64,000 bases of DNA from Clavelina lepadiformis (taxonomy: Eukaryota > Chordata > Ascidiacea > Aplousobranchia > Clavelinidae), in the NCBI RefSeq assembly GCF_947623445.1, contig NC_135246.1, positions 20,270,288-20,334,287 on the forward strand. Direction: 5' to 3'. The translations under genes were made by a program, and so were the position numbers. Below, in pieces: positions 20,108-54,567 of the stretch. Position 1 is the first letter of the stretch; each line of letters opens with the position of its first letter. The notes under the pieces were generated by a model, which was not told where the DNA came from, did not search any database, and was given only the letters and a program-made list of their open reading frames with translations.

Positions 20108-25160
<5,053 letters not shown>

Positions 25161-25989: not shown

Positions 25990-28200
25990 TGTGAATGAGT
26001 GATAATTGCAGATCAACCAAGAAAGAGTTCCTTTCACAAAAAAATCTCCTAGAAAGTAAGTAATTCCTGTGTTTTCTTGTGTAAGCCTTGCATGGTTTCC
26101 AAAAGTATAGCAATAGATTTAAACATATGGACTGGGATAGGTTTTAAAATTGTTTGTTTCCTACGAACTTTCCTTTCATTTCCTTTACTCTGAACATTTT
26201 GGAAAGGTCTGATGTAACACGAAAAAAGTTGAAAAAAGTCATTTTCATTGAAATAACGAGAGATGAGCGTCTGGCACCTAATGTGCTTGCCTTTTCTATT
26301 ACGCAGTTAAAATGTAGTTGGTGATTATGCGATTTGAAGCTTGGGAGCCAGTGTTTCGCAAAAGTTCACAACAAAGCCCGGTATGGCCTCTCAACTAATT
26401 GCAAAAAACAATCAAAATTTAAAAACTTTTTCCAGATCAAGCGAACAAAGCGATGTGAAACCTGAGAAAAAGAAACGGATTAGACCGAAGAAAAAGTGTC
26501 CGTAAGTTCTATTATAATTTCTGCCAACTTTCAAGTATGAAAGGAAGATAATTTGAAATATTTCAACTTTTCAATACTGTGTTTGATTATTATGTGTAAA
26601 ATAAAACAAAAGCCAAACATGTCCAAGACCAACGACATAATGGTGGTAGTAATTGTTGTAGATACTGTGGTGTCATGAATTCGAATATCTCGCGCCACTG
26701 CAAAGTCGTGTACGATAAAGAACATTATGGGGAAGGTGATTTTGAGTGCGAACTTTGCGGTAAGCGACTGACTTCTTGGAATGGCCTCGTGAGACACCTA
26801 CGTGGCAAGTGTCACGCTGGTCAACCCGACGCAAAGGAGACACGAAGAACGGGTAGCCCAAGATAAAGTATCACTTATGCAAAATATAATGAAAGATTGT
26901 GATTTCAAAACGTTGGAGTCCATTAACCTGGACACATATACAGAGAAACATGTGCAGGTTAGGACGTAATGTTAATTTTGATAAGTTACATACAATATTC
27001 TTTGGATATACTACAGATAGAATCCACTACGTAATATACTCAAAGAATGTATATATACAAAGTCTTAGCAAATTTAGTTGTATTTAAAAATAAAAGGAGA
27101 CCATCTTGCTGTATTTTAGAAATTACAAAAGGAAAATAAGACTCCGTCAACATTCATATCCCACTCTAATGCCATGACGAGCTTCCTCAACTTTTCATTA
27201 ATGAAGAAGCTGCCATTGACCTTCAATGTGGGGGAGGCCCTTATTAACTTGAAGAATAGAAGGGCATCTTACAGAAAATTTAAAAAAAAGGTGATTACAA
27301 GCACCGCCTACATATAACCTTTAAACTGTTGGATACTTTACTCGTGTTGGTATCTGAAAACTAGTTTTGTTATTGCAAGTAAAACTACTTCCATGTTAAT
27401 AAATATACGTTTGTTAACCACTCTTGATTACCTAAAATTTTTGTGTTTTCTAGGAGGCGAGTTATTAAGGAGATTGATCGCAGAAATGCGTTGGACCCAG
27501 CAGAAGTGAATAGAGTGAAGAAAAATCCACTTTTTCATAAAGCTGCGCTAACCACAAAACGTAAATGACAGTTACAGTTGTTTGATATTTTTACATTATT
27601 TCATTTTTCGTTGAAAGGGTAACTCACTATATTCTACAAACATGCAGTCTGGGAAAACGACCCCGGAGCCGAGGTGAGAAGAGCCCACGGGTAAATCCTC
27701 ATGGCCTATCTGATAATCGAAAACTCGCAGCGGACAAGTGCAGTCCGCAACATGCTCGTGGAAGAGCTTATACATGGCTGCCGGACCAGGAAAGGACGAT
27801 GGATTAATTATTTGTGTAAGTCACCACATTCTCCTTTCATGTAGAAAACTATTAAAAATGGATGTTTTTAATGCAGGTGCGCGATCACAAAACATTCTCA
27901 AGATATGGGGATGCAACAATTGTAATGCCCGGCTGGTTGAAGGAGGGGCTTGACAACCTTGTCCGGTTCAACGGCGAAGGTTGTGAGATTGTATTTCCCA
28001 TAAAGGAAAAAAAAATCTTTCAAGTTCCGCTGCAGCAGAAGCAATACAGCGGGTGTGGAAGTTGGCCGGAGGTCGCGGAAAATTTACAGCGATTACAATT
28101 TCTATTCTTGGCAACGAAACAATTTCTTGTCAATGACAGGTTTGTTGTGAACACACGCTTCCTCCAAGCAAATGGTTGTTCGTAAAAATATGAATTATGT
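25990..28200 (+). pseudogene. Zinc-finger tyrosine recombinase, copy 1 (5'-truncated, decayed)
   Basis: Exon-like blocks: 26436-26501 (basic KKKRIRPKKKCP), 26662-26957 (CxxC...H...H finger YCGVMNSNISRHCKVV, second C2H2 finger FECELCGKRLTSWNG, then NLDTYTEKHVQ), 27120-27290 (KTPSTFISHSNAM), 27454-27560 (RRNALDPAEVNRV), 27648-27815 (box I arginine in ENSQRTSAVRN) and 27877 to about 28131 (HKTFSRYGDATIV). Each block aligns with an exon of copy 2 at 30.9-34.2 kb. Decay is visible: frame changes near 26840 and 27690 and after 28010, and the box II arginine region reads FTAITISILGN where copy 2 has LTATMVRK. Introns near 26.0-26.5 kb are also similar to copy 3 at 53-54 kb, so the copies spread as genomic DNA rather than by retroposition. 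Confidence 0.7.
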
Positions 28201-28796
28201 TTTTTAATCGCAGTCGTGCAGTTCGGCTGGTGGCACCGAAACAATAGCCGCATCAACTGAATGAAGCCCATATGCTGAACGAGTTGCACCAGCTGGTGAC
28301 GTTTCATCAGAAGAAGGTTCGTCAGCTGCAAGAAGCCCATCTGCTGAAGGAATCTGATTAGCAGAAAGAGAAAAAACATTACAAATTCGCCGAAACAAAG
28401 ACGGTGGCCCACAAAAATCGGTCCGGGAAAAAATAGTTGAGCCCCGTGTTGTTCTGCAGCAGGTAAATTACTTGAAACAATCTGTTAAAAAACAATCGTG
28501 GCAGTTTTGCAATTTTTGTTTTATAAATAACCTCTCTAGTGTAGCAGGTCTTTCGAAGCTGCCAGTAAGTTAAAATTTAGTTACGACTTCACAATGAACT
28601 ATGGTTTTATTGATATCATTTCATGTCACTCCATGTGCTTTATGTGTCCAATGCATGCATCAATCAAGCATGGGTTAATAAAATATATATGTAGTAGTCA
28701 CACATATTTAGATGAAAAGTAGAAATTTGCTTGATATACCAAAAGTTCTTTTAATAATATAGGAGAGCCCCAGCACATCTTCAACACCCTCTAGAA

Positions 28797-29437
28797 CAGT
28801 TTTTCCAATTCCTCCCTTACCAACCAAAACACCGTCAATTCCTCCCCCCCAAAAAATCACAAAAAATAATTTCCAAAATTTGACACTATCTGAATATTGT
28901 CCCTGGATGATGTCTTTTGAAGATTTATCTCAGGAATAAAATTCAAAATAGCAAAAGAAACTTCTTACAAAATAACCAAACAAATCGTTGCTCATTGTTA
29001 GTGAGAACCGTGAGCCTCATGTTGAGAAGTTAATAAAGAAAATCGAGGAGAAGAGCGTGTGAGTTTTGCTCGAAGGTCTCCGCAAATATCGTGTGTTCCT
29101 CTTTTTTTCATCACTAGCTTACTAGCTAGTTCTATAAGTACCTTACTAACAATAAAGAGAAAACAATAGCCATTATGAACCAAACAGACACGTTTATAAC
29201 GTCAGTCACTGCAGTTAAGGAGCTTGTCCTCGCGCACTATTGTAGACATCTAAACAACCTCTCCGAGAGGATTTTTCTGTTACAAATAAAATTAGAAAAT
29301 TAAAGTTTTTTTTATATACAGTTTTTCGTCCCCAATTCCTCCATGGAGAAAATTTCCTCCCTGGAATTAAAAATTCCCCCCCTGGAATTAAAAATTCCCC
29401 CTTTAGTGAGCCAAGTGGCCCGGTTTGAGAAGCACTG
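28797..29437. mobile_element. hAT-type non-autonomous element
   Basis: Exact 8-bp target duplication CTCTAGAA at 28789-28796 and 29438-29445. The ends are CAGTTTTTCCAATTCC and GGTTTGAGAAGCACTG, imperfect inverted repeats starting CAG. The interior has short AATTCCTCC-type repeats near both ends and no transposase frame. Confidence 0.82.
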
Positions 29438-29583
29438 CTCTAGAAAGAGGAAAAGGAAAGCTACTTTCGCTCATTATAGTTTCTCGGTAAGTACTATTCT
29501 AAACATTTTAGTATATTGTAATATATAGCATATATATTTACATATTTCTAAGTAAAGTAAAGGATAAGGAAATAATCTACAAA

Positions 29584-30270
29584 GTGCACGTAAGGGAACA
29601 TTTTTCGTGGTATGACAAACCAAAAAGTCTTAACCCCAAGACTTTTACAATTAATACGTCAAATTGGCCCATTGGAAAAGTACTGTGTGATTTCGATCGA
29701 TATGGTTTCCCAATGCCCCTACACACCGTTCCAGGATGGAGAACTTGTCCGGATACCATTTCCTACGATACTAACCCTCAATTTTAAGGGCGCTTTCACC
29801 CCTAACCCTAACCCCTCAAATACATTGGGTCATTTTGCCAGATGCGACCGGTCATTAAGTTCTAACTCTGAAGATTTAGAAACCGGTATTGTCTTTATTT
29901 TAGAGCCTAAGGAACTATCTTTCCGGCCATAATGCAAACAAGCAGTAAGCCTAACAACTTCGACACTCAAATTGACAGCTCTGACGATCAGAAAAAGCCG
30001 ACCCCATTAAAAAGGTTCGCGTACCATTTCGGTCGATATGGAATTGCAATGCCTCAAAATACAGTTTGTCGATGGAGAACTTGTCCAGACACCATTTCCT
30101 ACGATACTAACCCTCAATTTTAAGGGTGCTTCACCCTTAACCGTAACCCCTCAAATAAATGGAGTCATATTGCCAGATACGACCTGTCATTAAGTTCTAA
30201 CCCTGAAATTTTAGGGTGACTATATCTTCTTTATTCTAGGGCGTAGGGGAACGTCCTTCTGGCCAGAGGG
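29584..30270 (+). repeat. Two-copy tandem duplication, ~345-bp unit
   Basis: Unit 1 (about 29584-29931) and unit 2 (about 29932-30270) share GGAGAACTTGTCC, ACCATTTCCTACGATACTAA, CCCTCAATTTTAAGGG and CATTAAGTTCTAAC. Each also carries short CCCTAACCC-like stretches. Divergence is clearly higher than for the other duplications here, so it is older. Confidence 0.75.
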
Positions 30271-30878
30271 CAAACATTATTGTAAGAATAAGTGTAGTTA
30301 ATTTCAAGGTGTAAAAATCCATTTTAAATTTTGACGACTCTGCTTGTCGAAATCAGGTCATGTAGAGATCATAGAGCATTCTGAACACGAAGTATTTTTC
30401 AAACATAAAGTGCTCTAACACAAATTCTACTCAAAGAAATTCAACCAAACTCGCGTTGCCGACGCACACTGTGACGATCTTAAACATAACTAAATTTGAG
30501 TGGTTTTGCTTTAACCTGACGCATATAACATAGCGAACAAGAATGAGAAACATTTTTCCAGTTTTCGACACCGCAAAAGTCGTAACCCCAAGTCGTTGGG
30601 GTTAGGATTTTTTAAGTTACTACATATTGCATTTTTCCTCCTTGCTTGGGTTAAGCATTTTTCCTCTGCCGTATTGAACAAGATGCTTCTTATTTTGTTG
30701 TCTATGCATTCTCGTGATAGCAGTATATCTCTTAGTTTCCAGTGCTAGGACGTTTGGCTTAGGAGTAGCCTATTTCCCGTGTTTCGTCATGGAGGTGGTC
30801 AAAGATTTTTACATTTCAAAAGTGAACTCGAGGCTTTGTAAAGTCCATGCCGTATTTTGCATGTTTTAAAAATTTGAT

Positions 30879-33800
30879 ATGGCGTCTCCATGCAGAGAGA
30901 AGTTGTTTCCGGTTAAAAACGTTGTTGTCGCTGATGATAGTTCAAGTCCTGTCGACGACAGTGACTTGGACAGGGATTTCCATCCAGGGCTATCCAGCTC
31001 GTCGTCCAATGACGACATGGAAACCATTGTCAGTCCCTCAAAGCTTCCCAAAAGAGTTCGTAGTTTGATTTTTCGTTTTGTAAATTCTGTTGATTAACAA
31101 GTTATAAAATGTTGTTATTTTATTTTGCAGATTATTGAAAGAAAAAGAAGAAAAATTCCGAAAAACTTTCATGTTACAAGCCCTGGGTATTTTGAAACTC
31201 GGCAGAAGGAAATGAGAACGTATGTGCAAGGGTTTAGGTAAGAGTTTTCACTTTTTCTTTCACTCTGTTCTTGACACAAATTCATACAGATTTTTTCCTT
31301 AAACTCTGTGCCAGTTAGCAGAAGAAAAAGGTGAAAAGTTTTTTTTGCAGATCAGTTCAAGAAGGCCGTGATTATGGGATAAAAAGTAAAGACCTACAAC
31401 AGTCTAATTTCGGCCAAGCCGCAATCGAGAGTTTTGGCGAGTTTGGCCAGGAGTTGAGTTCTGCTTATAAGTAAGCCCGTTAACGTTAGCATTCAGATTG
31501 TTTGTTTTTATGTATACGGACAGAATTTGAGTTAAATTCTTATTTTAATTGACAATATTTGCAATTTTTGGTAAGTTTTTCTACGTCTGCCGTTTTAGGA
31601 ACCTCAGCGACTCTACGGCCGAAGCCGTAGCAGCGAGAGAAATTGTGGCAAAAGTAATGCTAGAAAGAATCGACAGTAGTCTGTGAGTAAAATGGCTTGA
31701 ACTTATGCGAGATTTTAAAAATTACCATGCTCTATGTAAACTGTGATGACTTAAAATGCTTTGTTTTATGATGAAAGCGAAAGGAAAAGTATCGAAAAGG
31801 AATCAGAACAAGAGATGGAAGAGGCAGCAGGGCAAGAAGTGTCGGAGAGAAAAGAAGATGAGATGGTGGTGGATGATGATGGGTTGCTGGTAGATGGTGG
31901 GCAATCTGACGGGTTGGAAGGTGACGCGGAGGAAAATGCTGCAGAGGAGGTGCAACGGAAGAAGCCTGACTCCAAAAGAAAGGCAAATTATAAATTCTCT
32001 CGTGAAGGCAAGGACAAATGCCCCTTATGCGATAAATATGTAAAGCATCTGGTGAAACACCTGAAAGGTGCGAAACATAAGGATGACGCACAAGTGAAGG
32101 AGCTAGTAATGTCGCTTGATAAACGGCGACGTGATAATACAGCAAAGGTAATTGCTTGTCTAGACATGTATGTAGCAATATTTAAAGAGAAGAAGTGCTT
32201 CAAGAACATGATGCGCTTTTAGTTGTATGTGTATTGTTATATCACTTATTGTCTGTTCAGTCGCCTGAACCAAAGAGTCCCACTTTTTCCTGGACTGCCT
32301 GCTTGAAAAATTTCTCGGGTTATCTACAATCCGTGTACGGAGGAGGAAAACGGTTGGTTGATGCAGAAAAGCAGAAATCTATTCTGCAAAGAATAGTTTC
32401 TAAATGTAATTTTGAAGATTTGCAAGCTTTCACCTTGGACACGTACCAAGCGAAGCACGTTAAAGTAAGTACCTGCGTAGAATTTGCTTCATTTGTGGTT
32501 TGTTGCGTTTACTACAGAATTCATTGGCAGTTGCTTGAGGAAGGCAGCTGCAAGCCTTCAACATTCATAGCTCACAATCCGCAGTAGTTGCATTCATAAT
32601 TTTCTTGACTATGAGGCATGCGGCAGAGTGCAGCTTTGAATTTCAACCAACTATGATAAGAATAAAGCAGTGGAACGAGTTTTACCGGAGACGCCTCCAG
32701 GAGCGGTATGTTATTGGTTTGTTTAAAGTTTTGTTCAAACTTTGATGTTGCCGAAAATTGTTGTAGACGCCACGAAATCAGGGAGAGCGATAGAAGAAAC
32801 GCAATTCGGACCGAAGATGTAAACAAAGTTCTTCATTCAAGATATGTTATGAGATGCCTTCAAGACATGCGACGTAAGTAGTGTGACGCAAAACTCGTAA
32901 AGCGGGTTTACAGTAAAGCCTTTTCCATTATCTACAGTCATGGTTGAGCATCCAGGACTTTCGCGGATGCGCGTATACGGGGAAGTCCAATTTTGGCGTT
33001 TGAAAATGCCCAAAGACCAAGTGCGGTCAGAGGCATGATGGTGAATGAAGCCAAGGCGGCCGAAAAAGGACAGAAAGGACTTTCCGTGATTCGAGTACGT
33101 ATTGCTGGTCATTTTGTTGGCTGTCAAGTTTGTAAGTGATTGATAACTACTCAAAGTTTTGACAGGTGTTGCATCATAAGACCGGCCTGACCTGCGGGCC
33201 GGCTCAAATTGTAGTAAGACCACCGGTGATGGAAGCCCTTTTATCGTTCATCCGTGTGAGCGAAGAACAAAAGTATGTTTTCGAGTGGCGCGGGGAGCAA
33301 TTTTCCAGTTCCCACGCCGCTAAAGCTATGCAGCACGTGTGCAAAGCTGCAGTGCCAAAGGGCCGGAAACTTACAGCGACCATGGTTCGCAAATGCACAG
33401 CCAGTCAGGTTTGCTTTCCTCATCTACTGTAGTACGTGTAACTATTTCTTATACCCTGTTGGGTGTTTGCAGTATGACAATGCACATACTATTTTGCAGA
33501 TCCGCGCAAAAAACCCGCAACAGCGGGAAATGGTGGCAGGCCATATGGCGCACCTGCCTTCGACGCAGGAGGCGCACTATATTAATCCGCTCCAATGCGA
33601 TGAGTCAGTCGTCGCTTTTGAAGCAATCCAATCACTTTATGTAAGATTGCAGCCTCAAAGAAATAAATGCTTTGTGTGTCCCATAAATGTTGAACTGGAA
33701 CTACTGCAATTATTGTGTTTTAGGGTCGTGATACCATCAATGTAGAAGGATAAAGAAGGCGAAACTTGAAGGAGGAAGGCGAAACTTCTCGAAGTGTCCT

Positions 33801-34238
33801 TCCAGAACCAAGTGCAGGACCGTCACAACCGAGCTCTGAACCTCACTCCGAATTAACTTCTCCGGAGGAAGTGAGAACTACGGACGAGCCACAAAATAAA
33901 GACAATCCCGTTACACAAGCCGATGTGACAGAATATATAAGTTACAAAGAAACTGGAGCTTTGAAAGTTATTTAAGTAAGTAAAACCCTGGTATTAGCTA
34001 ATGTTACTGTTTGGTGTTTCAGAAAAAATGAAAGCAATTTTCTAAAGAAGAACTGTCTGAAGTAAAGTGTTTCTTTGCCGAAAAAATCCACAAAGGGGAA
34101 AGAATATTCCTCAAGGATGCAAAGGCTGCATTAGCGAAGGGGGACCTAACTTGTTGTGCAAAAAAAACCCCGAAACAAATTCAAGACCGTGTGGCAGCCT
34201 TTATTAGAACGGCACAAAGGCTGGAAAAAAAAAACTGA
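30879..34238 (+). CDS. Multi-exon zinc-finger tyrosine recombinase, copy 2 (Crypton-like, ~13 exons)
   Basis: Exons: 30879 to about 31060, 31131-31237, 31351-31470, 31599-31682, 31778-32147, 32261-32464, 32531-32705, 32767-32873, 32938-33094, 33166-33408, 33500-33640, 33724 to about 33972 and 34023-34238. In order they encode: acidic N-terminus; acidic linker and a C2H2 finger (CPLCDKYVKHLVKHLKGAKH); a SAM-like core-binding helix region (SWTACLKNFSGYLQSVYGGG...LDTYQAKHVK); then the tyrosine-recombinase core. Core residues visible: box I Arg (ENAQRPSAVRG), Lys (HKTGLTCGPAQIV), box II Arg (LTATMVRK, His replaced by Thr), His (GHMAHLPS) and nucleophile Tyr (TQEAHY). A C-terminal basic helical domain ends IQDRVAAFIRTAQRLE. 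Frame breaks at about 32590 and 32960 and an in-frame TAA at about 33751 suggest recent decay, unless splice choices avoid them. Such enzymes cut and rejoin DNA at specific sites; no reverse transcriptase is nearby, which argues against DIRS. Confidence 0.68.
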
Positions 34239-34262
34239 TTTGAATTAGGCTTAAATGTTTTT
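34132..34262 (+). repeat. 3'-end segment of recombinase copy 2, first copy
   Basis: The coding end and 3' flank of the recombinase gene (GAAGGGGGACCTAACTTGTT onwards). It is repeated almost identically at 34672-34802, in the same orientation. Confidence 0.85.
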
Positions 34263-34671
34263 GTATCATTGTGTTCTGCGTTCTTCAACTTTCATTCATT
34301 GTAATTTTCTTTCATTTATTCAATTGTTAAATTTTCAATTTTCATCTAGCATTTTTCATTGTTTTTATGCGTTCATATCTTCCATCTTAAAAATAGAATT
34401 CGGAGAACATTGCTTCCTTCACATCTGACAAAATTTACCTTTATCTGAAAAAAGTTACTTAGGGGTAGGGTTAAGACCATTTGAGTTGTCGAGGTATGGA
34501 AAAACGCTTCCCTGAGTGAACAGTGGGGTTAAGTCCAATAAAGCAAGCCGCAGATGGAAAAAAGTATCCTTGTTTGGGGTAAGGACCAATAAGTTTGTGA
34601 AAATTGGAAAAGCGCTTCTCTGAGTAAACACTGGGGTTAAGGCCAATAACACATGCAGTCTGGATGCATGC

Positions 34672-34802
34672 AAGAGAAGGGGGACCTAACTTGTTGTGCA
34701 AACAAAACCCCGAAACAAATTCAAGACCGTGTGGCAGCCTTTATTAGAACGGCACAAAGGCTGGAAGGAAAAAAAACTGATTTGAATTAAGGTTAAATGT
34801 TT
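34672..34802 (+). repeat. Second copy of the recombinase 3' end
   Basis: Nearly identical to 34132-34262, including the last codons and a stop; the similarity extends into the following AT-rich flank (to about 34910 versus 34390). The ~240 bp between the copies contains an imperfect repeat with GGGGTTAAGRCCAATAA motifs (34465-34650). It is either a local tandem duplication or the remnant of a second element's terminus. Confidence 0.82.
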
Positions 34803-34919
34803 TTGTATCGTTGTGTTTTGCTTTCTTCAACTTTCTTTCATTAATTGTTAAATTTTCACTTTCTTCTAGCATTTTTCATTGTTTTTATGCGTTCGTTTCT
34901 TACGTCCTAAAAATTGATT

Positions 34920-36513: not shown

Positions 36514-36626
36514 TTCCTCCCCCGCTACGGAAGGAAAAAAATTGACAATTAAAAAGTGACATCCTGATTACAACAACTGTGGGCGTGAACAAACCACAGA
36601 ACGACTATATACAGATACCCGAATAA

Positions 36627-39239: not shown

Positions 39240-41128
<1,889 letters not shown>

Positions 41129-42275: not shown

Positions 42276-45200
42276 GTTGCTTTTATAATTTGCGAAACGT
42301 TTCGGTGGAATAATTTTGCGACCAGTTCGAGACGTCTTTACAACCGTAGGAGGTTTTGTTGGCTCGGGAGCAGTAACAGTCGGTGGTACCGTTTGTCGTC
42401 TCGTTGAGGAGGAGGGCAGTGACTGCGGAGCAGGATCTTGCGTCTGCAAAGAAAAATTCTGTTGTTGATGCGAAGGTGTTGATGTTAAAGGGGCATCAAT
42501 ATCGATAGTGTAGCTAGGCTTTAGACGGTCGAGGGAAACGCGGTCCGGTTTGCCCTGGCGAGAAATAACAAAATACTTTTCGTATCTCTCCAATACTGGA
42601 AACGGACCAACATACGGGCGTTCTAACGCTCTTTTGACATGGTCACAGCGCACATAGACGCGGTCACAATGTTTCAAATCCGGGTGAACGTAGGACTGCA
42701 TGAATTTCGTATGAGCGGTCGTTGGTGTAAACTGAAGGTCGTTGATGAATTCTCGATATGCACCGAGGTAGCTGGATGTAGGAACTGCAGAGGCAAGCTT
42801 GGCGTCTGAGAAGAAACCACCAGGGAGACGTAAGGTGTGTCCAAAAGCTAACTCAGCGGGTGTACATTTCAGGTCCTGAAGATAGCGATTACGCAGAGCT
42901 AGGACAATAAAACCCAATTTGTGAAACCAACGCTCAGGTTCATCGGAACACTTGATGTCGCGCTTGATCTCCGCATTTGCACGTTCCGTAATTCCATTGG
43001 ACATGGGGTGGTAAGCAGTTGTCAGCTTATGTTGAATACCTAGAGAGCGCATAATTTCCGCCCAAGCAGAACTTGTGAAACACGGTCCACGATCACTTGT
43101 GAGGATGATTGGAACGCCGACCAAGGAACACCAGTGATTTACAAAGTAAGCGGCGACGGTTTCTGTGGTGGCATCCGGAAGTGGTATGGCTTGAACGAAC
43201 CGAGTATATCGGTCAATACATGTAAGGATGTATTTGTAACCATGTGAGGTTGGAAGTGGTCCAATCAGGTCAATTGCAACATCGGAAAATCGACCTTCAG
43301 GAACTTTAAATGTCCCTGGTGCGGTTTTGGTGTGGCGGAATATTTTTCCTTCTTGGCAGTTTGGGCATTGCTGGACCCAGGTAGCGATTTGTTTACACAT
43401 CCCTGTCCAGATAAATCGTTCCTTGATGAGCTTGATGGTGGCTTTCTTTCCAGGATGCGATAAGTTATGTAAGTGCAGAAAGACTTGACGTCGGAAGGAG
43501 GACGGAACCAGAACACGCTCTGTCTCGGCGGACACGTCACAAAGAATGGTTACGTCGTTATTGGGCAGCTTGCAGTCTTGGAGTTTGAGTGCTGTTGTCG
43601 CGGCGCGTAGTTTCTGAATGGCAGGATCAGTGATTTGAGCTTGTGCTATTTTTTCATATTCTAAAGGCGGCGGAAAATTGGAAATAGCATTAATGTCGGG
43701 TGTTGCATTATGCGACCTTGACAAAAGGTCCGCCACCACGTTATCAGAACCTTTGATGTGTTCCACGGTTGTCGTATATTCTGAAATGAACAACAATTGT
43801 CGGAATTGTCTTGGTGAGTAGTGTTCGGAGAGCTTCCCGAGACTAGAAACCAGAGGTAGATGGTCAGTACGTAAGGTGAATTGACGGCCTGTCAAGAAGT
43901 AGCGAAAATGTCGAATGGACTTGTAAGCGGCCAACAGTTCTCGGTCAAAGCAACTGTATTTCTGTTGACTTGCAGTCAGCTGTCTTGAAAAGAAGGCTAA
44001 CGGGACAAGTTGGTTTCCTTGTTGTTGTTCCAACGTTGCTCCAATACCGGTCAATGAAGCGTCAACTGTTAAATAAGTTGGGGCGTGGAGTTTCGGAAAC
44101 GCCAAAGTGCTAGCATTTGCAATAGCTTGTTTGCTATCAGCGAACGCGCGTTCTGCATCCGCATTCCAATGTAAAGGGGCGCGTTTGTTTCGATTGCCTG
44201 AAACTAGTTTGTACAGCGGCTGCAACATGGTAGAGCAATGCTTCAGGAAACGAAAATAATAGCAATAAACGCCCAAGTAACTTTTCAGCTGTTTGCAGGT
44301 TTTTGGCTGAGAGTAATCGAGAATGGCTTGCACTTTTTCTTGAGTTGGTCGTATACCCTCAGAACTTATGTGATGTCCTAGGTATTCAAGAGACTTGCGG
44401 TTGAATTCACATTTGCCGAAATTCAGCGTTAAGCCGAATTCATCAAGCCGTTGAAAAAGCATCTTAAGGTGTTCAAGATGTTCCGACAGATTACTACTTC
44501 CAATGATGATATCATCGAGGTAGGCAAAGATTCCAAGGTGCTGAAGAGGGCGTACCACTTCTCCTATGAGTCAGGAAAACGTCCGTGGCGCGACGGACAG
44601 ACCAAACGGAAGTCTTGTATATTCAAATTGTCCAAGGAGGCAAACAAATGCCGTCTTATGAACATCCTCAGGAGCCACCTCAATTTGGTGGTAGGCGGCC
44701 TGGAGATCTAACTTGGAGAAGACAGTCTTACCATACAAGACATCTGAAAAGCTGTGTAGGAACGGAAGAGGGTAACAGCTGTCGGTTGTTTGTTTATTGA
44801 CCAGTTTGTAATCAATGACAAGACAATACTTGTTGCCTGACGAGCCTTTAGGAACGAGTAACGCTGGACTTCCGTAAGGCGAATCACTGTAGCGGATGAT
44901 TCCCCGTTCCAGCAAGCTGTCGATTTCTTTCTTCAAGATTTCCATTGTTTCTGGACTATAACGACGCGGGCGTGAACGCACAGGCGGACCTGTGGTATGA
45001 ATATGGTGAACGATGGAATGTTTCACCGGTTTAACAGCAGCTGACAAGGGTTGTAGCAGGTACGGGAATTGATGTAGCAGATCGCCCACAGGATTTATCT
45101 GACTGAGAATGGATATTCGAAGCGGGTCATGTGCAAAAGGCTCTAACGTGTATTGTTGTTGGTTCGGTACATCTATCAGCTGTTTTGCTTTAAGGTCCAA

Positions 45201-45635
45201 GACAAAGTTGTAGTTAGTGAGAAAATCCAATCCCAGGATGCAAAAGGGTGTGTCCGCCAGCACAAACTCAAAGGGATAAGAAAAGCGAGGATGCAGAGAA
45301 ACATTAAGCTGTTTAATGCCATACGTAGTAATAAGCGTGTTGTTGGCTGCAAAAAGCGGCGTTTTTGGTTCCCGATTTAATTTGTCAGCTGAACTAGCCG
45401 ATAACAGCGAAGTTGCGGCCGCGCTATCAACATAAAAATGAATATCATTGCAGTAATCATAAACAGTCAACAAAGGGCAGCCTCTTATGGCAGCTGATGC
45501 GATCGACGGGGCTGAGCGTTCTATTGTTGCGTCGACCGCCAAGCGTTTTTTGTCGCTTGTGACTGTTTTTTCCACATGTAGCATGTTGGGTGACAGCGGC
45601 GCGCATCCCTTCCAAAACGCGCGTGATAGTAACAT
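42276..45635 (-). pseudogene. pol: pol: protease, reverse transcriptase, RNase H, integrase
   Basis: The frame is -1 relative to gag, with a 115-nt overlap (45635-45521). Domains in order: aspartic protease (FYVDSAAATSLL, DSA in place of DTG; ILGLDFL), reverse transcriptase (FSKLDLQAAYHQI, LPFGLSVAP, then the YLDD active site in FAYLDDIIIGS), RNase H (LTVDASLTGIGATLEQ, FDRELLAAY, RTDHLPL), integrase with zinc motif (HNLSHPGK...CPNCQEG), DDE core (AIDLIGPLP; TSDRGPCF; GITERANAEIKR) and a GPF/Y-type C-terminal module (YVGPFPVLERYEKYF). An in-frame TGA at 44573-44571, within RT just before the active site, is the only stop; its CpG context would fit a C-to-T transition. Confidence 0.93.
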
Positions 45636-46732
45636 AAGCCATCAGAACCACGGGAAGCACCAGGGTAATCACCAGGGGAAGCACCATCGTAATTGTTGCG
45701 TTGATATTCTCGTTTCGGAAAGGTGGCAGGCGAATTTGAGAACCTGTCGTTGCGTTTGTTCGTGAAGGAAGAACCGCGTGGTCGTTGGTCATCTCGATCA
45801 CAGACGTTGTAGTTGCCTGATTCGTGGAACCGTCCATTGTTTGCGTGTGACGATCGTTGTTGCCAAGTCGCGTTGAATGCTTTGCGTTGGTTTGCTGGAT
45901 TTTCGTTGGAGTAGTAAGGATTTCTTGGTCCGAAACTCTTCGTTGCATGTTGTTGTCCTTCCGTATTAGTGATAGCAAGCGAAAGGTTGTTCCGTGCAGT
46001 TTGCGGTTGTTTAAGCAACAATACTTCGTGCGCTTTGTTTGCGAGGCTCTGTAGATTTTCATGTTCCACGCTGGCTAGCGCAATTGCGACGTACGGCGGT
46101 AACGCTTTGAGAAATTTCGCACGAATTAGTTTAACCACTGGCGGAGTAAGATTCTCTTGACCTACTGCACTCATCAATTCCCGCATTAAATGTTTGGGTG
46201 ATTGACCATGCAGCGTGAGGTCAGCCAACAAAAAATCCAAATGATCCTCACGTTTATCAAAGTTCCTCAAAATTTCGTTGATCAAGGTGTCGTAACAGTC
46301 CTGAGCCGACGCAGAAGGCAAACGAAGTAATGCAAGGTCTGTAGCCGGTATTGCTTCTACTGCTAGCAAGTAACGGTTTGTTTGCGAAGCGATGCGATAC
46401 AGAGAAAATTTGTGTTCCAGGTGGGAGATCCATGCTTCAGGATTGAATTTCCAAAAGGTAGGAAGCTTGACGTGTGAAAACAAATCGTTCCTCGAGGTAG
46501 TGTCCTGTGTCCGCACACTTATCAGTTCTTTCCTGTCAGCCCCCAGACCAGAGGGTCCGGCCGCCTCATTGCTGGAGGGCTCTGCCGATTGTTCTTCGTT
46601 TTCGTTCGACATGGTCGTATCCTGAATTGACTCGACGGGCCTTGTGGTTAATCGTGTGCTAATGTGATACTCTGACTTAGCTTTGCCTGGTAGAGAAGTA
46701 ACTTTTCGTAGTGTCGGCAACGGTTTTGGCAT
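45521..46732 (-). CDS. gag: gag polyprotein of gypsy element
   Basis: 403 codons from the Met at 46732. The capsid region (LPTFWKFNPEAWISHLEHKF through KLIRAKFLKALPPYVAIALA) has the usual retrotransposon Gag helices. The nucleocapsid end has an arginine/asparagine-rich stretch and a compact metal-binding-like motif, CYYHARFGRDARRC followed by HPTC, common in invertebrate gypsy Gags in place of a CCHC knuckle. It assembles the particle and packages RNA. Intact in this copy; pol is reached by -1 frameshifting in the overlap. Confidence 0.9.
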   Translation of the reverse strand: MPKPLPTLRKVTSLPGKAKSEYHISTRLTTRPVESIQDTTMSNENEEQSAEPSSNEAAGPSGLGADRKELISVRTQDTTSRNDLFSHVKLPTFWKFNPEAWISHLEHKFSLYRIASQTNRYLLAVEAIPATDLALLRLPSASAQDCYDTLINEILRNFDKREDHLDFLLADLTLHGQSPKHLMRELMSAVGQENLTPPVVKLIRAKFLKALPPYVAIALASVEHENLQSLANKAHEVLLLKQPQTARNNLSLAITNTEGQQHATKSFGPRNPYYSNENPANQRKAFNATWQQRSSHANNGRFHESGNYNVCDRDDQRPRGSSFTNKRNDRFSNSPATFPKREYQRNNYDGASPGDYPGASRGSDGLCYYHARFGRDARRCHPTCYMWKKQSQATKNAWRSTQQ

Positions 46733-47008
46733 TTATCAGAACCGATAAAAAATTCGCCGACACCGCGCAAAAATGTTGGGCACAAAAGATCCCGAAGAAA
46801 AAATTTCACGACAAAACTTTTATTGCATATTACAGCGCGGTGTAAAATGATAGCCTAAGCCAAGTGAGCATGCATTACGAGCTGGTGGGCATGCATTACA
46901 AACTAGGGTTGCAGCTATTTGTAAAAAGAACATGCAAAATCCACTTACCAGTGAAGAACGGGGCTGTAGGGATTGAAACACGTCGTGTCAACGTCGGGGT
47001 CACCAAAA

Positions 47009-47678
47009 TGCAGAGATCACTGCTTGTCTTAACTTATGTTATTCGGACTTAATTTACCTGCCGAATTAATGATCTGACTCTGTGGTTGCGTGCGGTTAGA
47101 ATGCTCTAACCTTACGTCTACTAACCGCAAGTTCTTACGATTAACAGATACAGTTTATCAGAAGCAATCCTTTAATGTAGGAACTGTACAGGTTCCGATT
47201 ATAATACATTCACAAACTTAACATTCATCATTTAAAACAAGTTTAAGGAATTACAATTTCGCGAATAACGTAGCACGTTCGTACGATTCAGTATCTCTCT
47301 GTCTGCGGCGCTACTCGCGTATCAGTTCGAGTTTATAAAGCGGAGCGATGTGAACGGAAATATTCAACACAATATACACGAACATTTCAGAATGTGTGAA
47401 CGATAAAAACAAAGCGTTGGCACTGGGAATTACATTCAGTTAAAACTGGAATGTTATGAAATCACCTGGTAACGCACTAAACGGCGTTTTCACATAAAGT
47501 TATTTAGGGCAAGTTTCCAAATATTACATTACGATTGCAGTTTTATCAAGTTGCAGCTGCAGCCAAATATTAAATGCTAGCTGCAGTTTTATCAAAGAAC
47601 AATGTTTCAATAATTAAATGGCGCATACGTTTTCACAATTGATATAACGGTATTGAAAGCGGCTCCCAGGCCGCTACA
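47009..47678 (-). repeat. 5' LTR of gypsy element
   Basis: 670 bp, the same structure as the LTR at 35842-36513, with a few substitutions such as TTATTGTAGG versus TTAATGTAGG. The promoter should lie here; on the minus strand it directs transcription toward gag. A candidate TATA (TTTATAAA, around 47333-47340) reads the same way on either strand. Confidence 0.9.
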
Positions 47679-48197
47679 GACGAAAAACGAAAGAAACTGT
47701 TATTGATTTTGTGCTTTTAACTACGTGTATGTTAATTAAAGGTGTGGCCCGCGGTTTCAACCAGTTGTTGGGATTTGGCCCTCTTGTACAAAAGGTTGCA
47801 CACCCCTGTTTTAGTAGATTAGGCTTGCAGGGCTGTAGGCTTGGGTCGCTAGGTTTTTGAATAGACTTATTCCTTAAACATATTTGGGCAAATTTAAACC
47901 GGTTAGAACTGGTTTGAAAATATTTCCAAACATTTTTAAATATTTGAACATATTTGTGCAAATGTAAACCGGTTTGAACCGTTTTGGAAATATTTCCAAA
48001 CATTTTGACATATATGGACATTTCTGGCGAAATTTAAAACAGCTTTAACCGGTTTGGAAATATTTCGAAAAATTTTAACGTATTTGGGCAAATGTAAACC
48101 GGTTAAATGCAAATGTGAAACGTAAACCGGTTTGAAAATATTTCGAAACATTTTGACATATTTATTATCTTAAAATATTTTGGAAGAATTTTGAAAT

Positions 48198-48590
48198 CCT
48201 GTTCATTTATGTTCAGATAAAATACCAGGAGGATCTCAAAATGACAAAAGGAAGAGCGATCAAGGTCGTCGATGAGTTTTATTTGAGGAGAGTCCGACAA
48301 GCAACGAGGATATCGAGTGATCTGGAGTACAAAGGACTGAAGAACAAGCAGCAGGAGCGCACTCCCGAAAAATGTAAAGAAAAAAGTTTGAATCATTTAG
48401 TGTGAGAATTCCAGATTCAAGAATTTGCTCAAAAAACTGCATTAAGTCCTTTTATCCTACATCTCGGCGGATACAAAACTCAGCGAAGTGACCGGGCTTG
48501 TTTAGATGGTAATTCAAATTGAAAAATGGTACTTTGCATTGTTTAACATAAGGCTTCGGATAGGACTACAGACCCTTAATATGTTTGGGC
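48198..48590 (+). repeat. Cassette 1 in satellite: nebulin/LASP-like module
   Basis: A possible exon spans 48217-48373: acceptor TTATGTTCAG, in-frame IKYQEDLKMTKG, then VVDEFYLRRVRQAT, then SSDLEYKGLKN, donor GTAAAG. Nebulin-family modules are ~35 aa actin-binding units marked by SDxxYK; here SDLEYK, with KYxEDxxxxKG and VVD...RVxxAT at the expected spacing. Unspliced, the frame ends at a TGA at 48405. Two nearly identical copies follow. Confidence 0.6.
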
Positions 48591-50397
48591 AAATTTAAAC
48601 CAGTTTGGAATAATTTGGAAACCTTTTGACATGTTTGGAAATTTTCGCCAAATTTAAAACAGCTTTAACCAATTTGGAAATATTTGGAAACATTTTGAAA
48701 TATTTGAACAAATTTTGGCAAATGTAAACCGGTTTGAACTGGTTTGAAAATATTTGGAAATATTTTGATATAATTGGACATGTTTGGCCAAATAAAAGAT
48801 TTTACTTGTTTGGAAGTCTTTGGAAACATTTTGAAATATTTGAACATAATATGTTCAGATATTTAAACATATTTGGGCAAATGTAAACCGGTTTGAACTG
48901 GTTTGGAAATATTTGGAAACATTTTGACATATTTATACATTTCTGGCCAAATTTAAAACAGATTTTACTGGTTTGGAAATTTTTAGAAACAATTTGAAAT
49001 ATTTGAATATATTTGGGCAAATGTAAAGCAGTTTGAAATGGTTTGGAAATATTTTGATACATTTTGACATATTTGGACATTTCTGCACAAATTAAGATAG
49101 CTTTTACCAGTTAGGAAATATTTCGAAACATTTTGTAATATTTGAACATATTTGGGCAAATTTAAACTGGTTTGAACTGGTTTGGAAATATTTAGCAATA
49201 TTTTGATATATTTGGACATGTTTGGCTAAATTTAAAAAAGCTTTAACCGGTTTGGAATGATTTGGAAACATTTTGAAATATTTGAACATATTTGAACAAA
49301 TGTAAACCGGTTTGCACTGGTTTAGAAATATTTGGAAACATTTTGAAATATTTGAACATATTTGTGCAATTGTAAACCGGTTGGAACTGGTTTGGAAATA
49401 TTTGGAAACATTTTGACAGATTTGGACATTTTTGGGCAAATTTAAAACAGCTTTAACCGGTTTGGAAAAATTTCGAAACTTTTGAACATATTTGAACAAA
49501 TGTAAACCGGTTTGAACTGGTTTGGAAATATTTCGAAACATTTGGACATATTTGAACATTTTTGGCCAAATTTAAAAAGCTTTTACCGGTTTGGAAATAT
49601 TTTGAAACATTTTGAAGTAGTTGAACATATTTGGGCAAATGTAATACGGTTTGAACTGGTTTGGAAATATTTTGAAATATTTCAATATATTTGTGCAAAT
49701 GTAAAATAGCTTTAACCGGTTTGGAAATATTTCGAAACATTTTGAAATATTTGAACATATTTGTGCAAATGTAAACCGGTTTGAACTGGTTTGGAAATAT
49801 TTTGAAATATTTCAATATATTTGTGCAAATGTAAAATAGCTTTAACCGGTTTGGAAATATTTCGAAACATTTTGAAATATTTGAACATATTTGGGCAAAT
49901 GTAAACCGGTTTGAACTGGTTTGAAAATATTTGGAAACATTTTGACAGATTTAAACATTTCAGGCTAAATTTAAAACGGCTTTTACCGGTTTGGAAATAT
50001 TTTGAAACATTTTGTAATATTTGAACATATTTGGGCAAATTTAAACCGGTTTGAACTGGTTTGGAAATATTTGGAAACATTTCGACAAATTAGACATTTC
50101 TGGCGAAATTTAAAACAGATTTTACTGGTTTGGATATATTTGGAAACATTTTGAAACATTTGAATATATTTGGGCAAATTTAAAACAGCTTTAAACGGTT
50201 TGGAAGTATTTCGAAATATTTTGAAATATTTTTACTTATTTGGGGAAATGTGAACCGAACCGGCTTGAACTGGTTTGAAAATATTTGAAAACATTTTGAC
50301 ATATTTGGACATTTTTTTGCCAAATTTTAAACAGCTTTAACCGGTTTGGAAATATTTCGAAACATTTAGAAATATTTAATATTGAAATATTTTAAAA

Positions 50398-50791
50398 TCC
50401 TATTCATTTATGTTCAGATAAAATACCAGGAGGATCTCAAAATGACAAAAGGAAGAGTGATCAATGTCGTCGATGAGTTTTATTTGAGGAGAGTCCGACA
50501 AGCAACGAGGATATCGAGTGATCTGGAGTACAAAGGACTGAAGAACAAGCAGCCTGAGCGCACTCCCGAAAAATGTAAAGAAAAAAGTTTGAATCATTTA
50601 GTGTGAGAATTCCAGATTCAAGGTTTTGCTCAAAATACTGCATTAAGTTCTTTTATCCTACATCTCGGCGGATACAAAACTCAGCGAGGTGACCGGGCTT
50701 GTTTAGATGGTAATTCAAATTGAAAAATGGTACTTTGCATTGTTTAACATAAGGCTTCGGATGGGACTACAGACCGTTAACATGTCTGGGC
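50398..50791 (+). repeat. Cassette 2 in satellite: nebulin/LASP-like module
   Basis: Near-identical to cassette 1 over its whole length, including the non-coding downstream part (GGATACAAAACTCAGCGAGG, then AAGGCTTCGGATGGG). The possible exon starts at 50418. Coding changes are few (VINVVDEF instead of AIKVVDEF; KQPER instead of KQQER), so the frame is conserved. Confidence 0.6.
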
Positions 50792-52027
50792 AAATTTAAA
50801 CCAGTTTGGAATAATTTGGAAACCTTTTGACATGTTTGGACATGTTTGGCCAAATGTAAACAGTTTAGGAAATACTGGTGAACAGTTTTACATATTTGAA
50901 CATTTTTGGGCAAATTTAAAACAGCTTTAACCAGTTTGGAAATATTTCGAAACATTTTTAAATATTTGATCATATTTGGGCAAATGTAAACCGGTTTGAA
51001 TTGGTTTGGAAATATTTGGAAACATTTTGACATATTTGGACATTTCTGGCGAAATTTAAAACAGCTTTTACTGGTTTGGAAATATTTCGAAACATTTTGA
51101 AATATTTGAACCAATTCGGGAAAATGCAAACCGGTTTGAACTGGTTTGGAAATATTTTGAAACATTTGGACATATTTGGACATTTTTGGCCCAATTTAAA
51201 AAAGCTTTAACCGGTTTAGAAATATTTGGAAACATTTTGAAATATTTGAACATATTTGGGAAAATGTAAACCGGTTTGAGCTGGTTTGGAAATATTTGGA
51301 AACATTTTGATATATTTGGACGTTTTTTACCAAATTCAAAACAGCTTTTACCAGTTTGGAAATATTTCGAAACATTTGAATATATTTGGGCAAATGTAAA
51401 CCGGTTAGAACTGGTTTGGAAATATTTCGAAACATTTTGAATTATTTGAACATATTTGGGCAAATGTAAACCGGTTTGAACTGGTTTGGAATTATTTCTA
51501 AACATTTGAATGTATTTGGGCAAATGTAAAACAGCTTTAACCAGTTTGGAAATATTTCGAAACATTTTGAAATATTTGAACATATTTGGGCAAATGTAAA
51601 CCGGTTTGAACTAGTTTGGAAATATTTAGAAACTTTTTGAAATATTTGAATTTATTTGTGCAAATGTAAACCGGTTGGAACTGGTTTGGAAATATTTGGA
51701 AACATTTTGATATATTTGGACCGTTTTTGCCAAATTGAAAACTGCTTTAACCGGTTTGGAAACATTTCGAAACATTTGAACATATTTGTGCAAATATAAA
51801 CCGGTTTGAACTAGTTTGGAAACATTTGCAAACCTTTTTACATATTTGAACATTTTTTTTCAAATTTAAAACAGCTTTGACCGGTTTGGAAAAATTTTAA
51901 AACGTTTGAACATATTTGGGCCAATGTAAACCGGTTAAATGCAATTGTCAAATGTAAACCGGTTTGGAAATATTTCGAAACATTTTGACATATTTATTAT
52001 TTTAAAATATTTTTGAGGAATTTTAAA

Positions 52028-52422
52028 ATCCTGTTCATTTATGTTCAGATAAAATACCAGGAGGATCTCAAAATGACAAAAGGAAGAGCGATCCAGGTCG
52101 TCGATGATTTGAATTTGAGGAGAGTCCGACAAGCAACGAGGATATCGAGTGATCTGGAGTACAAAGGACTGAAGAACAAGCAGCCTGAGCGCACTCCCGA
52201 AAAATGTAAAGAAAAAAGTTTGAATCATTTAGTGTGTGAATTCCAGATTCAAGAATTTGCTCAAAATACTGCATTAAGTCCTTTTATCCTACATCTCGGC
52301 GGATAAAGAACTCAGCGAGGTGACCGGGCTTGTTTAGATGGTAATTCAAATTGAAAAATGGTACTTTGCATTGTTTAACATAAGGCTTCGGATAGGACTA
52401 CAGACTCTTAATATGTTTGGGC
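52028..52422 (+). repeat. Cassette 3 in satellite: nebulin/LASP-like module
   Basis: Third copy; the possible exon starts at 52049. It has VVDDLNLRRVRQAT and SSDLEYKG. The TGA that ends copies 1 and 2 is changed to TGTGAA here, so the unspliced frame runs on to 52306. The spacing of cassettes (2.2 and 1.6 kb) is set by the number of 70-bp monomers between them. Confidence 0.6.
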
Positions 52423-52590: not shown

Positions 52591-53138
52591 TCTGTAATGT
52601 TTCTTCAAATCAACACCAACTTCATAAAGTTTAATTGTTATATTGTCCGAATAGGTTGTATCGAATTAGAAATATTTACACCATCTTTCCACATTTAAAC
52701 AAAGCTATAACTCAAATTCAGTAATGATTCCAATTCCGAATAATTCAGCAATAACTTCAATTCAGCAGAACAGAAAAAATACCCAAGATAAGAGAGGTAC
52801 TAGCCAGTCCTGAAGGGACTAGCCCTCCAAGACTAGCCAGCCCGAGCAGAACGATTTCAACCAAGTTTAACCTTTTATATCATACACCTCAACCAATCAG
52901 CTAACGCCATGTTATATTTATCATTGCTACGTATATATGTGTAATATCTATTATTCTTCGTCATCCAAACATTTCATCAAGTACACTTCAAACTTTACGC
53001 CGTAAATACAAGGTACTTGAAATACTTATATCTGCGTCCAATATGTCGGTTTAGAATTCCTTGTTTAAATAAGAGCTTAGCACGAAATACGCAGCTTTGT
53101 AAACATTACATTATCTAAACTGGAGAAAATACAAAAAC
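52591..53138. other. Spacer after the satellite array
   Basis: No gene seen. A short repeat of ACTAGCC (52800-52847) is the only pattern noted. Confidence 0.4.
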
Positions 53139-54567
53139 TCATGCAAAATGCCAAATTGTATAGATTATTGCAATTATTATCACGAACGCCACAACTCTAT
53201 CCACTTCGGCCGGGTTCAATGCATTCTTGCGGTCCCAAAAGCTTTTGAAGTCGTTTATAACCTCGTCCCAGTTTAAGCAGTTAATTCGTTGCTGTAAAAA
53301 GTAGCGAGGATTTGTGTTAATCATTGCATGAGTTGTTTCAACTGTACAGTCAGTTTGTACTGTATGTATTTAGCGAAACTTACAATTGGGACGCTTTTCC
53401 GGCGGCGATCCATAGAATCAGCCATCTCCTTTGCCTCGGGTTGATCAGTGTGACACTTGCCACGTAAGTGTCTCACGAGGCCATTCCAAGAAGTCAGCCT
53501 TTTTTTGCAAAGTTCGCACTCAAAATCACCTTCTCCATAATACGGTTTATCGTGCACGACTTTGCAGTGGCGCGAGATATTCGAATTCATGACACCACAG
53601 TATCTACAACAATTACTACCACCATTATGTCGTTGGTCTTGGACATGTTTGGCTTTTGTTTTATTTTACACATAAAAATCAAATACAGCATTGAAAAGCT
53701 GAAAGTATTTTAAATTCGCTTCCATTTATACTTGAAAGCTGGCCGAAATTATAGTAGAACTTACGGACACTTTTTCTTCGGTATAATCCGTTTCTTTTTC
53801 TTCGGTTTTACATCACTTTGTTCTTTTGACCTGGAAAGAGTTTAATAAAATTTTGACTGTTTTTGGCAATTAGTTGAGAGGCCACAAGAAAACACAGGAA
53901 TTAAAATTACTCTCTCAAGAGATTTTTGCGTGAAAGAAACTCTTTATTTGCTTATCTGCAGTTATGTTATGAAACAAATTTTAAATCAAACGCTTTCAAA
54001 GTGTACGTGTCAATGATGGTTTTCACAAAAGCTCTACTTACCCAGAAGGATTAATGGCCTCGTTTGCCATATCCTGTACAAACTCTCTGAAAAAGTACAA
54101 TCGTTAGTATTTTCTGTTACAATTTGTTACACATAATTCGGCATACCTGGCACCCGTTTGAGTCGCAACCTTTTCGGCTTCGGTTATGCCACTTATTGAC
54201 GGGATATCGTCAAGTTGGTCAAGTTCAAACTCGTATGGATCGCGTCTTTCTTCTTCTTGTCCCCCCTGCAGAAGTAGGATTAAACCGGTATGTTAAATTT
54301 TTGCCAGTAAAGTTGACATTGTCTTTATTATTTTATCGATAAAAGCAACCAACCCGATGCTTCCTCAAACGGATGCCAGACTGCTTTGGGTCCTTTTCTT
54401 CTTTACGATTCTTTCCTGCACAATTCTCTTCCCCTAGAAACGAATAGCAGACTATTTAACACACGTACATGGCTACATAAGTACGCACTCGATTCCACAA
54501 GCTAGTGTACATTACCTGATGTCACAAATTCAACCATCTCCATGTCTGTCATTTCGTTCATATTCAT
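53139..54567 (-). pseudogene. Zinc-finger tyrosine recombinase, copy 3 (5' part only)
   Basis: Minus-strand exons: start 54567-54516 (MNMNEMTDMEMVEFVTSG), then at about 54434-54346 (EENCAGKNRKEEKDPKQS), 54270-54150 (DPYEFELDQLDDIPSI), 54088-54044 (REFVQDMANEAINPS), 53832-53767 (SKEQSDVKPKKKKRI...KKKCP), 53602-53385 (two C2H2 fingers: YCGVMNSNISRHCKVV and FECELCKKRLTSWNG) and about 53300-53190 (WDRKNALNPAEVDRV). All introns start GT and end AG. It supplies the N-terminal exons missing from copy 1 and shares intron sequence with it, but the recombinase core is absent; the sequence changes to other DNA at about 53.14 kb. Lysine-rich KKKKRIIPKKK is a likely nuclear localisation signal. Confidence 0.68.

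Follow-up and report, generated by a model that had tools for sequence, protein, structure and literature searches.

A tyrosine-recombinase gene family with zinc fingers near the chromosome ends of Clavelina lepadiformis, probably spread by subtelomeric duplication

According to the available part of PMC3212892, the eukaryotic tyrosine recombinases known by then were all carried by mobile elements, Cryptons carry short direct repeats at their termini and no human DUF3504 protein retains the catalytic site. Endogenous nimaviruses of crustaceans insert in telomere repeats, and their recombinases, which bear a C2H2 domain, are not closely related to those of Cryptons or DIRS; a related, 28S-associated group of recombinases is predicted to be multi-exon and has decapod relatives outside viruses (PMC10871703, in the part available). 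Here we analyse a family of intron-split tyrosine-recombinase genes with zinc fingers that is represented by three broken copies in a stretch of 64,000 nucleotides from the ascidian Clavelina lepadiformis (C7:20270288-20334287), referred to below as the window. C7 measures 20,448,514 bp and continues for 114 kb past the window, and the genome that was searched comprises 209 Mb in 95 contigs; the assembly kaClaLepa1.1 is given as 210.1 Mb in 102 scaffolds in the available text of PMC10884593.

We consider it probable, if far from certain, that this is a constrained subtelomeric recombinase family of Clavelina lepadiformis that was spread by chromosome-end duplication. The analysis demonstrates the kinship of the core, the predicted gene models in two clades (A and B), the selection acting on them and the concentration at chromosome ends, mostly in a telomere-ward orientation, of whole and broken duplicated segments.

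Recombinase core, fingers and predicted genes

Judged by the sequence tests with PF00589 and hhalign, the core of the family is a tyrosine recombinase, as an earlier note on the window had proposed, and neither test places it outside that superfamily. The best match to PF00589 is that of a clade B core (E = 2e-5, 24.9 bits, positions 27-168 of the 172 in the profile), with a score below the curated cut-off of 27.1. Eight core sequences, picked from 13, make up our alignment A1; three of them match PF00589 at any level, and for two there is a match to the phage integrase family phrog_216, at best with an E value of 1e-4. Comparison of the eight family members with 52 XerD-type sequences in hhalign gave a probability of 88.7% (E = 2.5e-6) over 211 columns, a span that takes in the core-binding domain and that brings both arginine boxes and box III into register. 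Decoys (one reversed and four column-shuffled) reached a probability of at most 0.7%.

The residues Arg I, Arg II, the first His of HMAH and the Tyr are each present in all eight rows of A1, and the second His in seven. The Lys is found in six rows, one of the others having a stop there and the last being without the stretch. His is absent at the box II position of the HxxR motif, where seven rows have Thr and the degenerate L010 row has Ala. This position varies in other recombinases too, so the missing box II His alone does not exclude a tyrosine recombinase. Copy 2 of the window, a clade A gene, keeps all of the core residues that had been reported for it, Arg in AQRPSAVRG, Lys in HKT, Arg in TATMVRK, His in GHMAH and Tyr in EAHY, and it likewise has Thr in place of the box II His. 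Either His of GHMAH may be the box III residue; the second lies nine residues ahead of the Tyr, and nine residues also lead from His to Tyr in XerD, as in the family here.

The C2H2 finger that had been proposed is borne out for clade B, where one finger of the predicted-intact full protein scores 23.4 bits with PF12874 (cut-off 21.2). The same protein matches PF00589 (23.0 bits), which places finger and recombinase core in one chain, with the core-binding domain aligned by hhalign. The two clade A fingers were read by eye as C-x2-C-x9-H-x4-H and C-x2-C-x9-H-x5-H and have poor support from Pfam. Pfam offers nothing significant for the C-terminal domain, a search of NCBIfam gave nothing relevant and PF00589 found no match across the unspliced genome.

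Two genes are predicted to be intact, with models that rest on homology, open frames and splice signals. The clade A gene (L009, on C7) has a complete reading frame of 2472 nt including the stop, divided over 14 exons and encoding 823 amino acids, and all 13 of its introns are GT-AG. It occupies C7:20433407-20436984, and the TTAGGG repeats of C7 start at about 20443899, so that the gene lies some 7 kb from the telomere, with a last-exon fragment closer still. The clade B gene (L023, on the reverse strand of C1 within 1884500-1891500) has 15 exons and encodes 715 amino acids, again with GT-AG at all introns; one intron holds an insertion that we read as LINE-like (resembling a long interspersed nuclear element). 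From exon 6 to exon 12 the two genes have identical intron positions and phases, with small length differences in multiples of a codon. The cores of the two clades are 38-40% identical and the catalytic set is present in both. The predicted proteins begin with an N-terminal region, which is acidic in clade A, and continue with a pair of C2H2-type fingers, the core and a conserved C-terminal domain; within the core a SAM-like core-binding domain precedes a catalytic domain that bears R, K, R, H and Y and has Thr for the box II His. The description of the genes as rich in introns thus holds for both models.

Distribution, selection and spread

The number of copies had been put at three, a gross undercount. 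All genome-wide counts given here are lower bounds. The clade A form of exon 11 is present at at least 12 places by DNA and at least 55 by protein (of 59 candidates), the clade B form at at least 86 places of 93 candidates and the C-terminal exon at at least 90 of 96; for the clade B finger exon there are 172 candidates, 40 of which were scored. Among the 86 exon-11 places, 38 are nearly full length without a stop, 31 have a stop and many are partial. C1 holds 41 of the 86, of which 35 fall in its first 2.9 Mb, partly at equal spacings of 62,675 bp (three copies) and also of about 625.5 kb. Either recent segmental duplication or an effect of the assembly (haplotype duplication) would account for these spacings. 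The region C1:0-2.9 Mb, with the loci L022, L023, L030 and L031, is ampliconic, and an inverted duplication lies inside L031.

Copies are concentrated near chromosome ends. The zones within 500 kb of an end make up 4.3% of the chromosomes and contain 49 of the 86 exon-11 places, or 37 of 45 when C1 is left out. Such a place is found at 14 of the 18 chromosome ends, and the start of C6 is a fifteenth by virtue of exon 9 and its intron. Of the copies that lie less than 100 kb from an end, 20 of 23 are transcribed toward the telomere, a direction that is in the majority at 11 of 12 ends; for this count the 86 places were merged to 80, and copies at one end are not independent of each other. Chromosome lengths were taken from PMC10884593 for C2, C5 and C6 in the end-distance count and for C2 and C6 in the orientation count.

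Codon changes between copies show the family to be under purifying selection. The ratio of nonsynonymous to synonymous rates (dN/dS) is 0.23-0.38 in five of six clade A pairs and 0.64 in the closest pair. Over the 623 codons compared between two clade B copies on C1, nonsynonymous and synonymous changes number 19 each, a synonymous excess with p = 0.003 against a neutral nonsynonymous share assumed to be 0.72.

A separate puzzle is that introns diverge little where synonymous sites diverge strongly. Introns were trimmed of their splice signals and compared with the 3' flank and with fourfold sites, among family copies only. Window copy 2 and L009 differ by 8.5% in introns and by 26.0% at fourfold sites (p = 5e-11), and L009 and L012 by 18.1% and 53.9% (p = 4e-21). 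In the five older clade A pairs (among L009, L012, L013 and copy 2) intron divergence is about 3-5-fold below synonymous divergence after correction for multiple hits, and the effect survives removal of CpG-type sites. The closest pairs go weakly in the same direction, with p = 0.085 (the clade A pair, not significant) and p = 0.042; over whole exons and introns, the C1 pair is equally diverged in both (2.1%). For the clade B genes L023 and L025 the values are 28% in exons and 17% in introns. The total exon/intron comparison of window copy 1 with L023 and L024 runs the opposite way, in our reading because one intron is misaligned across the deletion in copy 1. Divergence of the 3' flank is like that of the introns for copy 2 and L009 (4%) and unlike it for L009 and L012 (40%). 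Snake venom phospholipase genes are a precedent for introns that are more alike than synonymous sites. We claim no cause for the pattern.

The way in which the copies end bears on how they were made. The loci L012 at the start of C4 and L013 at the start of C3 have 6.4 kb in common at 96% identity, reaching about 3 kb past the 3' end of the gene and bounded on the left by exon 1. Common termini were not found among the clade A copies compared, and the ends of homology vary pair by pair. Two loci close to the ends of C9 and C8, L026 and L027, each join clade B exons 10-11 to clade A exon 1, and in both the clade A portion breaks off at an identical point of intron 9, at a TTAGGG-like repeat. 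DNA matches that halt at about the same point of intron 9 are also found on C6, C2 and C1 (at 4.2 Mb). The two fusions and the varied ends look like traces of subtelomeric exchange and breakage rather than of an element with fixed ends. The earlier note had proposed either an intron-rich recombinase that spreads as DNA together with its introns or a host gene family enlarged by segmental duplication. Copying with introns stands, and of the two proposals the second, a gene family duplicated in segments, agrees better with the data than a discrete transposon does, since the one pair traced to both ends shares 6.4 kb that run past the gene, no common ends were found and the copies are mainly subtelomeric with a shared orientation.

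Of the alternatives, the least improbable is a mobile element that targets telomeres, which we regard as unlikely. The recombinase would then be a present or recent integrase, the subtelomeric copies would be insertions and their wrecks, and the introns would travel as DNA. The architecture is that of the nimaviral telomere-associated recombinases, whose viruses insert in telomere repeats (PMC10871703, available part), a telomere-ward orientation would also follow from integration into an oriented repeat and the clade A copies that are cut short near the ends of C9 and C8 meet TTAGGG-like repeats at an identical intron point. The spacing of 62,675 bp between three C1 copies suggested a large repeated unit and with it a possible giant element or viral carrier. 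Two 10-kb stretches of this unit contain a C2H2 finger array and an inverted duplication, but no viral gene was recognised when their open frames were scanned by eye, no profile search having been made there. Pattern matches to the family did arise in viral and prokaryotic contigs and none of them was confirmed by tblastn. The variable left ends and the L012/L013 segment that exceeds the gene argue in the same direction, against insertion of a defined unit. A domesticated host recombinase, acting at chromosome ends in programmed rearrangement or subtelomere maintenance with A and B perhaps paired like XerC and XerD, would agree with the constraint on both clades and with the retention of the catalytic residues, as well as with the arrangement at six loci (the window, L010, L018, L026, L027 and L113) where a clade A gene or remnant is preceded, on the same strand, by one of clade B. 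Some of these six loci are, however, copies of one event, while the adjacent A and B pieces of L015 and L017 differ in strand and the B piece of L011 is downstream. Copies and wrecks are also many, constraint is equally expected of an active element and Crypton-derived DUF3504 genes have lost their catalytic residues (available part of PMC3212892), so that there is no known precedent among those; we find this explanation highly improbable. We give least credence of all to an ordinary degenerate repeat, a dead family amplified passively with the subtelomeres. Such a family would account for three broken copies out of three in the window, for the many exon-11 places with stops or of partial length and for the dN/dS of the closest clade A pair, but it is at odds with two predicted-intact multi-exon models and with a synonymous excess even between recent duplicates on C1.

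Several observations weigh against our preferred reading of a constrained recombinase family spread by subtelomeric duplication. On the side of the protein, none of the eight core sequences passes the PF00589 cut-off, the spliced clade A protein alone has no Pfam match, a PDB sequence search with the clade A core and the family profile found no recombinase and comparison with single E. coli XerD or FimB sequences was not significant when an unrelated control was run alongside. In the hhalign match the Lys falls within a gapped stretch and the alignment ends directly before the Tyr. Assignment of these two residues therefore depends on one clade B protein, whose Pfam span reaches across the Tyr, and on reading by eye. 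On the side of the genome, the C1 array could partly be an assembly artefact, and its block reaches 2.8 Mb inward with further pieces to 4.2 Mb. Other places remote from chromosome ends lie on C4 at 17.0 and 23.9 Mb and on C3 at 23.75 Mb. Widening the zone to 500 kb weakens the orientation bias, to 33 of 45 copies telomere-ward and a majority at 11 of 14 ends.

The family may consist of host genes or be a telomere-dwelling element; spread by subtelomeric duplication is favoured, and the target of the enzyme is something that we infer. In such a scheme the fingers and the core would bind DNA, with target sites that may lie within subtelomeric DNA. Four subunits would synapse two sites and swap strands via the Tyr, as in XerD or Cre, and copies could pass from one chromosome end to another through ectopic exchange or break-induced copying, whether or not started by the enzyme. 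It would go further, and is in our view improbable, to suppose that a chordate keeps an active, spliced, zinc-fingered recombinase system of two ancient clades, possibly a heteromeric pair, that drives or controls subtelomere exchange. With its constraint, its full catalytic set and its place near most chromosome ends, the family would be either a host-kept recombinase without known precedent among DUF3504 genes or a new element residing at the telomeres of a tunicate, a member of the group that is sister to the vertebrates. With predicted-intact models, a gene 7 kb from a telomere and the poly-A RNA-seq data set ERR10908613, listed for this species in the available part of PMC10884593, the question of who employs site-specific recombination at animal chromosome ends becomes testable.

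Window members and their surroundings

The resemblance among the three family members in the window is real and far exceeds chance, but none of them is intact; their features are collected in Table 1. Copy 2 is the most complete. Its blastn match extends over 30593-34376 with L013 on C3 and over 30834-34430 with L009 on C7, and its gene part (30879-34235, + strand) aligns exon by exon with predicted-intact L009. It is broken by out-of-frame length changes in exons 8 and 10 and by stops in exons 13 and 14. Downstream, 34673-34774 is a 96% direct repeat of 34133-34234.

Copy 1 is 87-91% alike to predicted-intact clade B L023 in three blastn blocks within 26487-28090, with weaker pieces farther on. 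Exon matches start at 26663, 26841, 27120, 27455, 27650, 27877, 27999 and 28214. A deletion has fused exons 6 and 7 with loss of the end of the former and the start of the latter, exon 10 has a stop and exon 11, as read from the sequence, has a frameshift and is missing the box II Arg; exon 12, and hence the Tyr, is absent. Of copy 3 there remain the 5' flank (55507-55086), exon 6 with the finger and parts of exons 7 and 9 joined together, and the catalytic domain is missing; the flank is homologous to that of a clade B gene as far as 55507. Copies 1 and 3 had been given extents that were too short, since copy 1 continues in pieces to 29547 and the flank of copy 3 to 55507. The intron sequence that the two were said to share is confirmed, their exon and intron DNA being 93% alike over 280 bp and 87% over 141 bp, and exon similarity among the copies holds on alignment. 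A common order and phase of exons in all three is true in part: copies 1 and 2 have the same exon order from the finger exon through exon 11, and the predicted-intact models of both clades agree in intron positions and phases over exons 6-12; in copy 3 exon 6 and fused scraps of exons 7 and 9 are left.

Table 1. Features of the recombinase family in the window (positions counted from the first letter of the window)
Feature	Position	Strand	Basis or remark
Copy 1, broken clade B gene, exons 6-11 and bits of 3' exons, without catalytic Tyr	26487..29547	+	
Copy 1 C2H2 finger exon (exon 6), 3' end truncated	26663..26851	+	tblastn; DNA matches that of copy 3 at 93%
Repeat units that contain telomere-like CCCTAACCC motifs, in the interval from copy 1 to copy 2, common to other family loci	29556..30514	+	
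Copy 2, broken clade A gene and flanks common to C3 and C7 relatives	30593..34430	+	blastn extents
Copy 2 exon 1, acidic N-terminus	30879..31058	+	homology to L009 exon 1; ends 3 bases earlier if GT donor used
Copy 2 exons 5-6; exon 5/6 junction and finger 1 deleted, finger 2 (CPLCDKYVKHLVKHLKGAKH) kept	31773..32147	+	
Copy 2 exons 7-8, putative SAM-like core-binding domain, frame broken in exon 8	32261..32703	+	domain inferred from hhalign span
Copy 2 exons 9-10, including catalytic Arg I of AQRPSAVRG; exon 10 out of frame	32768..33094	+	
Copy 2 exon 11, open frame	33166..33408	+	Lys of HKT 33178-33180; Arg II of TATMVRK 33388-33390; Thr for box II His; codons checked
Copy 2 exon 12	33500..33640	+	His 33542-33544 and 33551-33553; catalytic Tyr 33578-33580 (EAHY); codons checked
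Copy 2 exons 13-14 (linker, C-terminal domain), interrupted by stops	33724..34235	+	
Second, partial copy of last exon and 3' flank	34673..34913	+	L009 match across 34673-34913
Copy 3, clade B gene remnant	53190..55507	-	inverted repeats with copy 1

The repeat units between copies 1 and 2 match L009 at 29556-29872 and 30071-30514 and include a direct repeat (29690-29795 and 30026-30131). Repeats of several hundred bp, 71-95% alike, occupy 56367-60087, and short pieces of these recur on either side of L023, the clade B gene of C1. A 16-bp unit (GAATCGTCCGCGGGTT) forms inverted arrays at 21724-21842 and 22542-22832, about 0.7-0.8 kb apart. Between copies 2 and 3 lies a Ty3-like long terminal repeat (LTR) element on the - strand (35842-47575), with LTRs at 35842-36410 and 47009-47575 that are about 98% alike and with frames for reverse transcriptase, RNase H and integrase (rve). 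A further frame of this element, 37546-38619, matches the ectodomain profile of herpesvirus glycoprotein B (PF00606, E = 5.3e-10, slightly below the cut-off). The element is followed at 47833-52307 by a long satellite array with units of about 70 bp, in which blocks of 300 bp at 48176, 50377 and 52008 are mutually 95-96% alike.

Comparison with described recombinase systems

XerC/XerD and the phage integrases resemble the family in the core and in the catalytic residues, as seen by profile. They differ in that the family is eukaryotic and intron-split and has zinc fingers, Thr for the box II His and an extra C-terminal domain. The captains of fungal Starships are likewise eukaryotic tyrosine recombinases, of large elements (PMC12134995, available part), whereas no cargo element with defined ends was found here. 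An assignment to DIRS or Ngaro was rejected: the exons of L009 and L023 contain neither reverse transcriptase nor RNase H, and the reverse transcriptase frames of the window belong to the LTR element.

Cryptons share with the family a tyrosine recombinase without reverse transcriptase and a spread of copies as DNA (PMC3212892, available part). They differ from it in that the family has no DUF3504 match, showed no short-repeat termini and possesses a pair of C2H2 fingers, 14-15 exons and a location mostly at chromosome ends. PF12012 (DUF3504) finds three places in the genome and none at family loci, where splitting by introns lowers the sensitivity of the search, and the spliced proteins are also without a match. 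Neither terminal direct repeats of 4-6 bp nor a discrete element was found among the clade A copies compared. On these two grounds, profile and termini, an assignment to the Cryptons was rejected. The genes derived from Cryptons (ZMYM2/3/4, QRICH1, KIAA1958, KCTD1 and WOC) are metazoan genes with a recombinase-derived domain, as are those described here, but they have lost the catalytic residues (available part of PMC3212892), which the family keeps as R, K, R, H and Y. At L019 the Clavelina lepadiformis genome has a DUF3504 gene of its own, which we read as ZMYM-like.

The nimaviral telomere-associated recombinases are probably the nearest described kind, a match in architecture and place that is made by description rather than by sequence. 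They, too, combine a C2H2 domain, a SAM-like domain and a tyrosine-recombinase core and are found in chromosome-end repeats (PMC10871703, available part). The suggestion that the system might be undescribed therefore holds for the family and not for the kind: as far as the searches go, the clade A/B family is unreported among the literature matches listed, a scope that leaves most subscription papers outside, while C2H2 recombinases associated with telomeres have been described in crustacean nimaviruses in the same part of that source. The difference lies in the carrier. The nimaviral gene is borne by a large virus that sits in telomere repeats, and the family described here consists of genes of 14-15 exons within subtelomeric duplications of a chordate.

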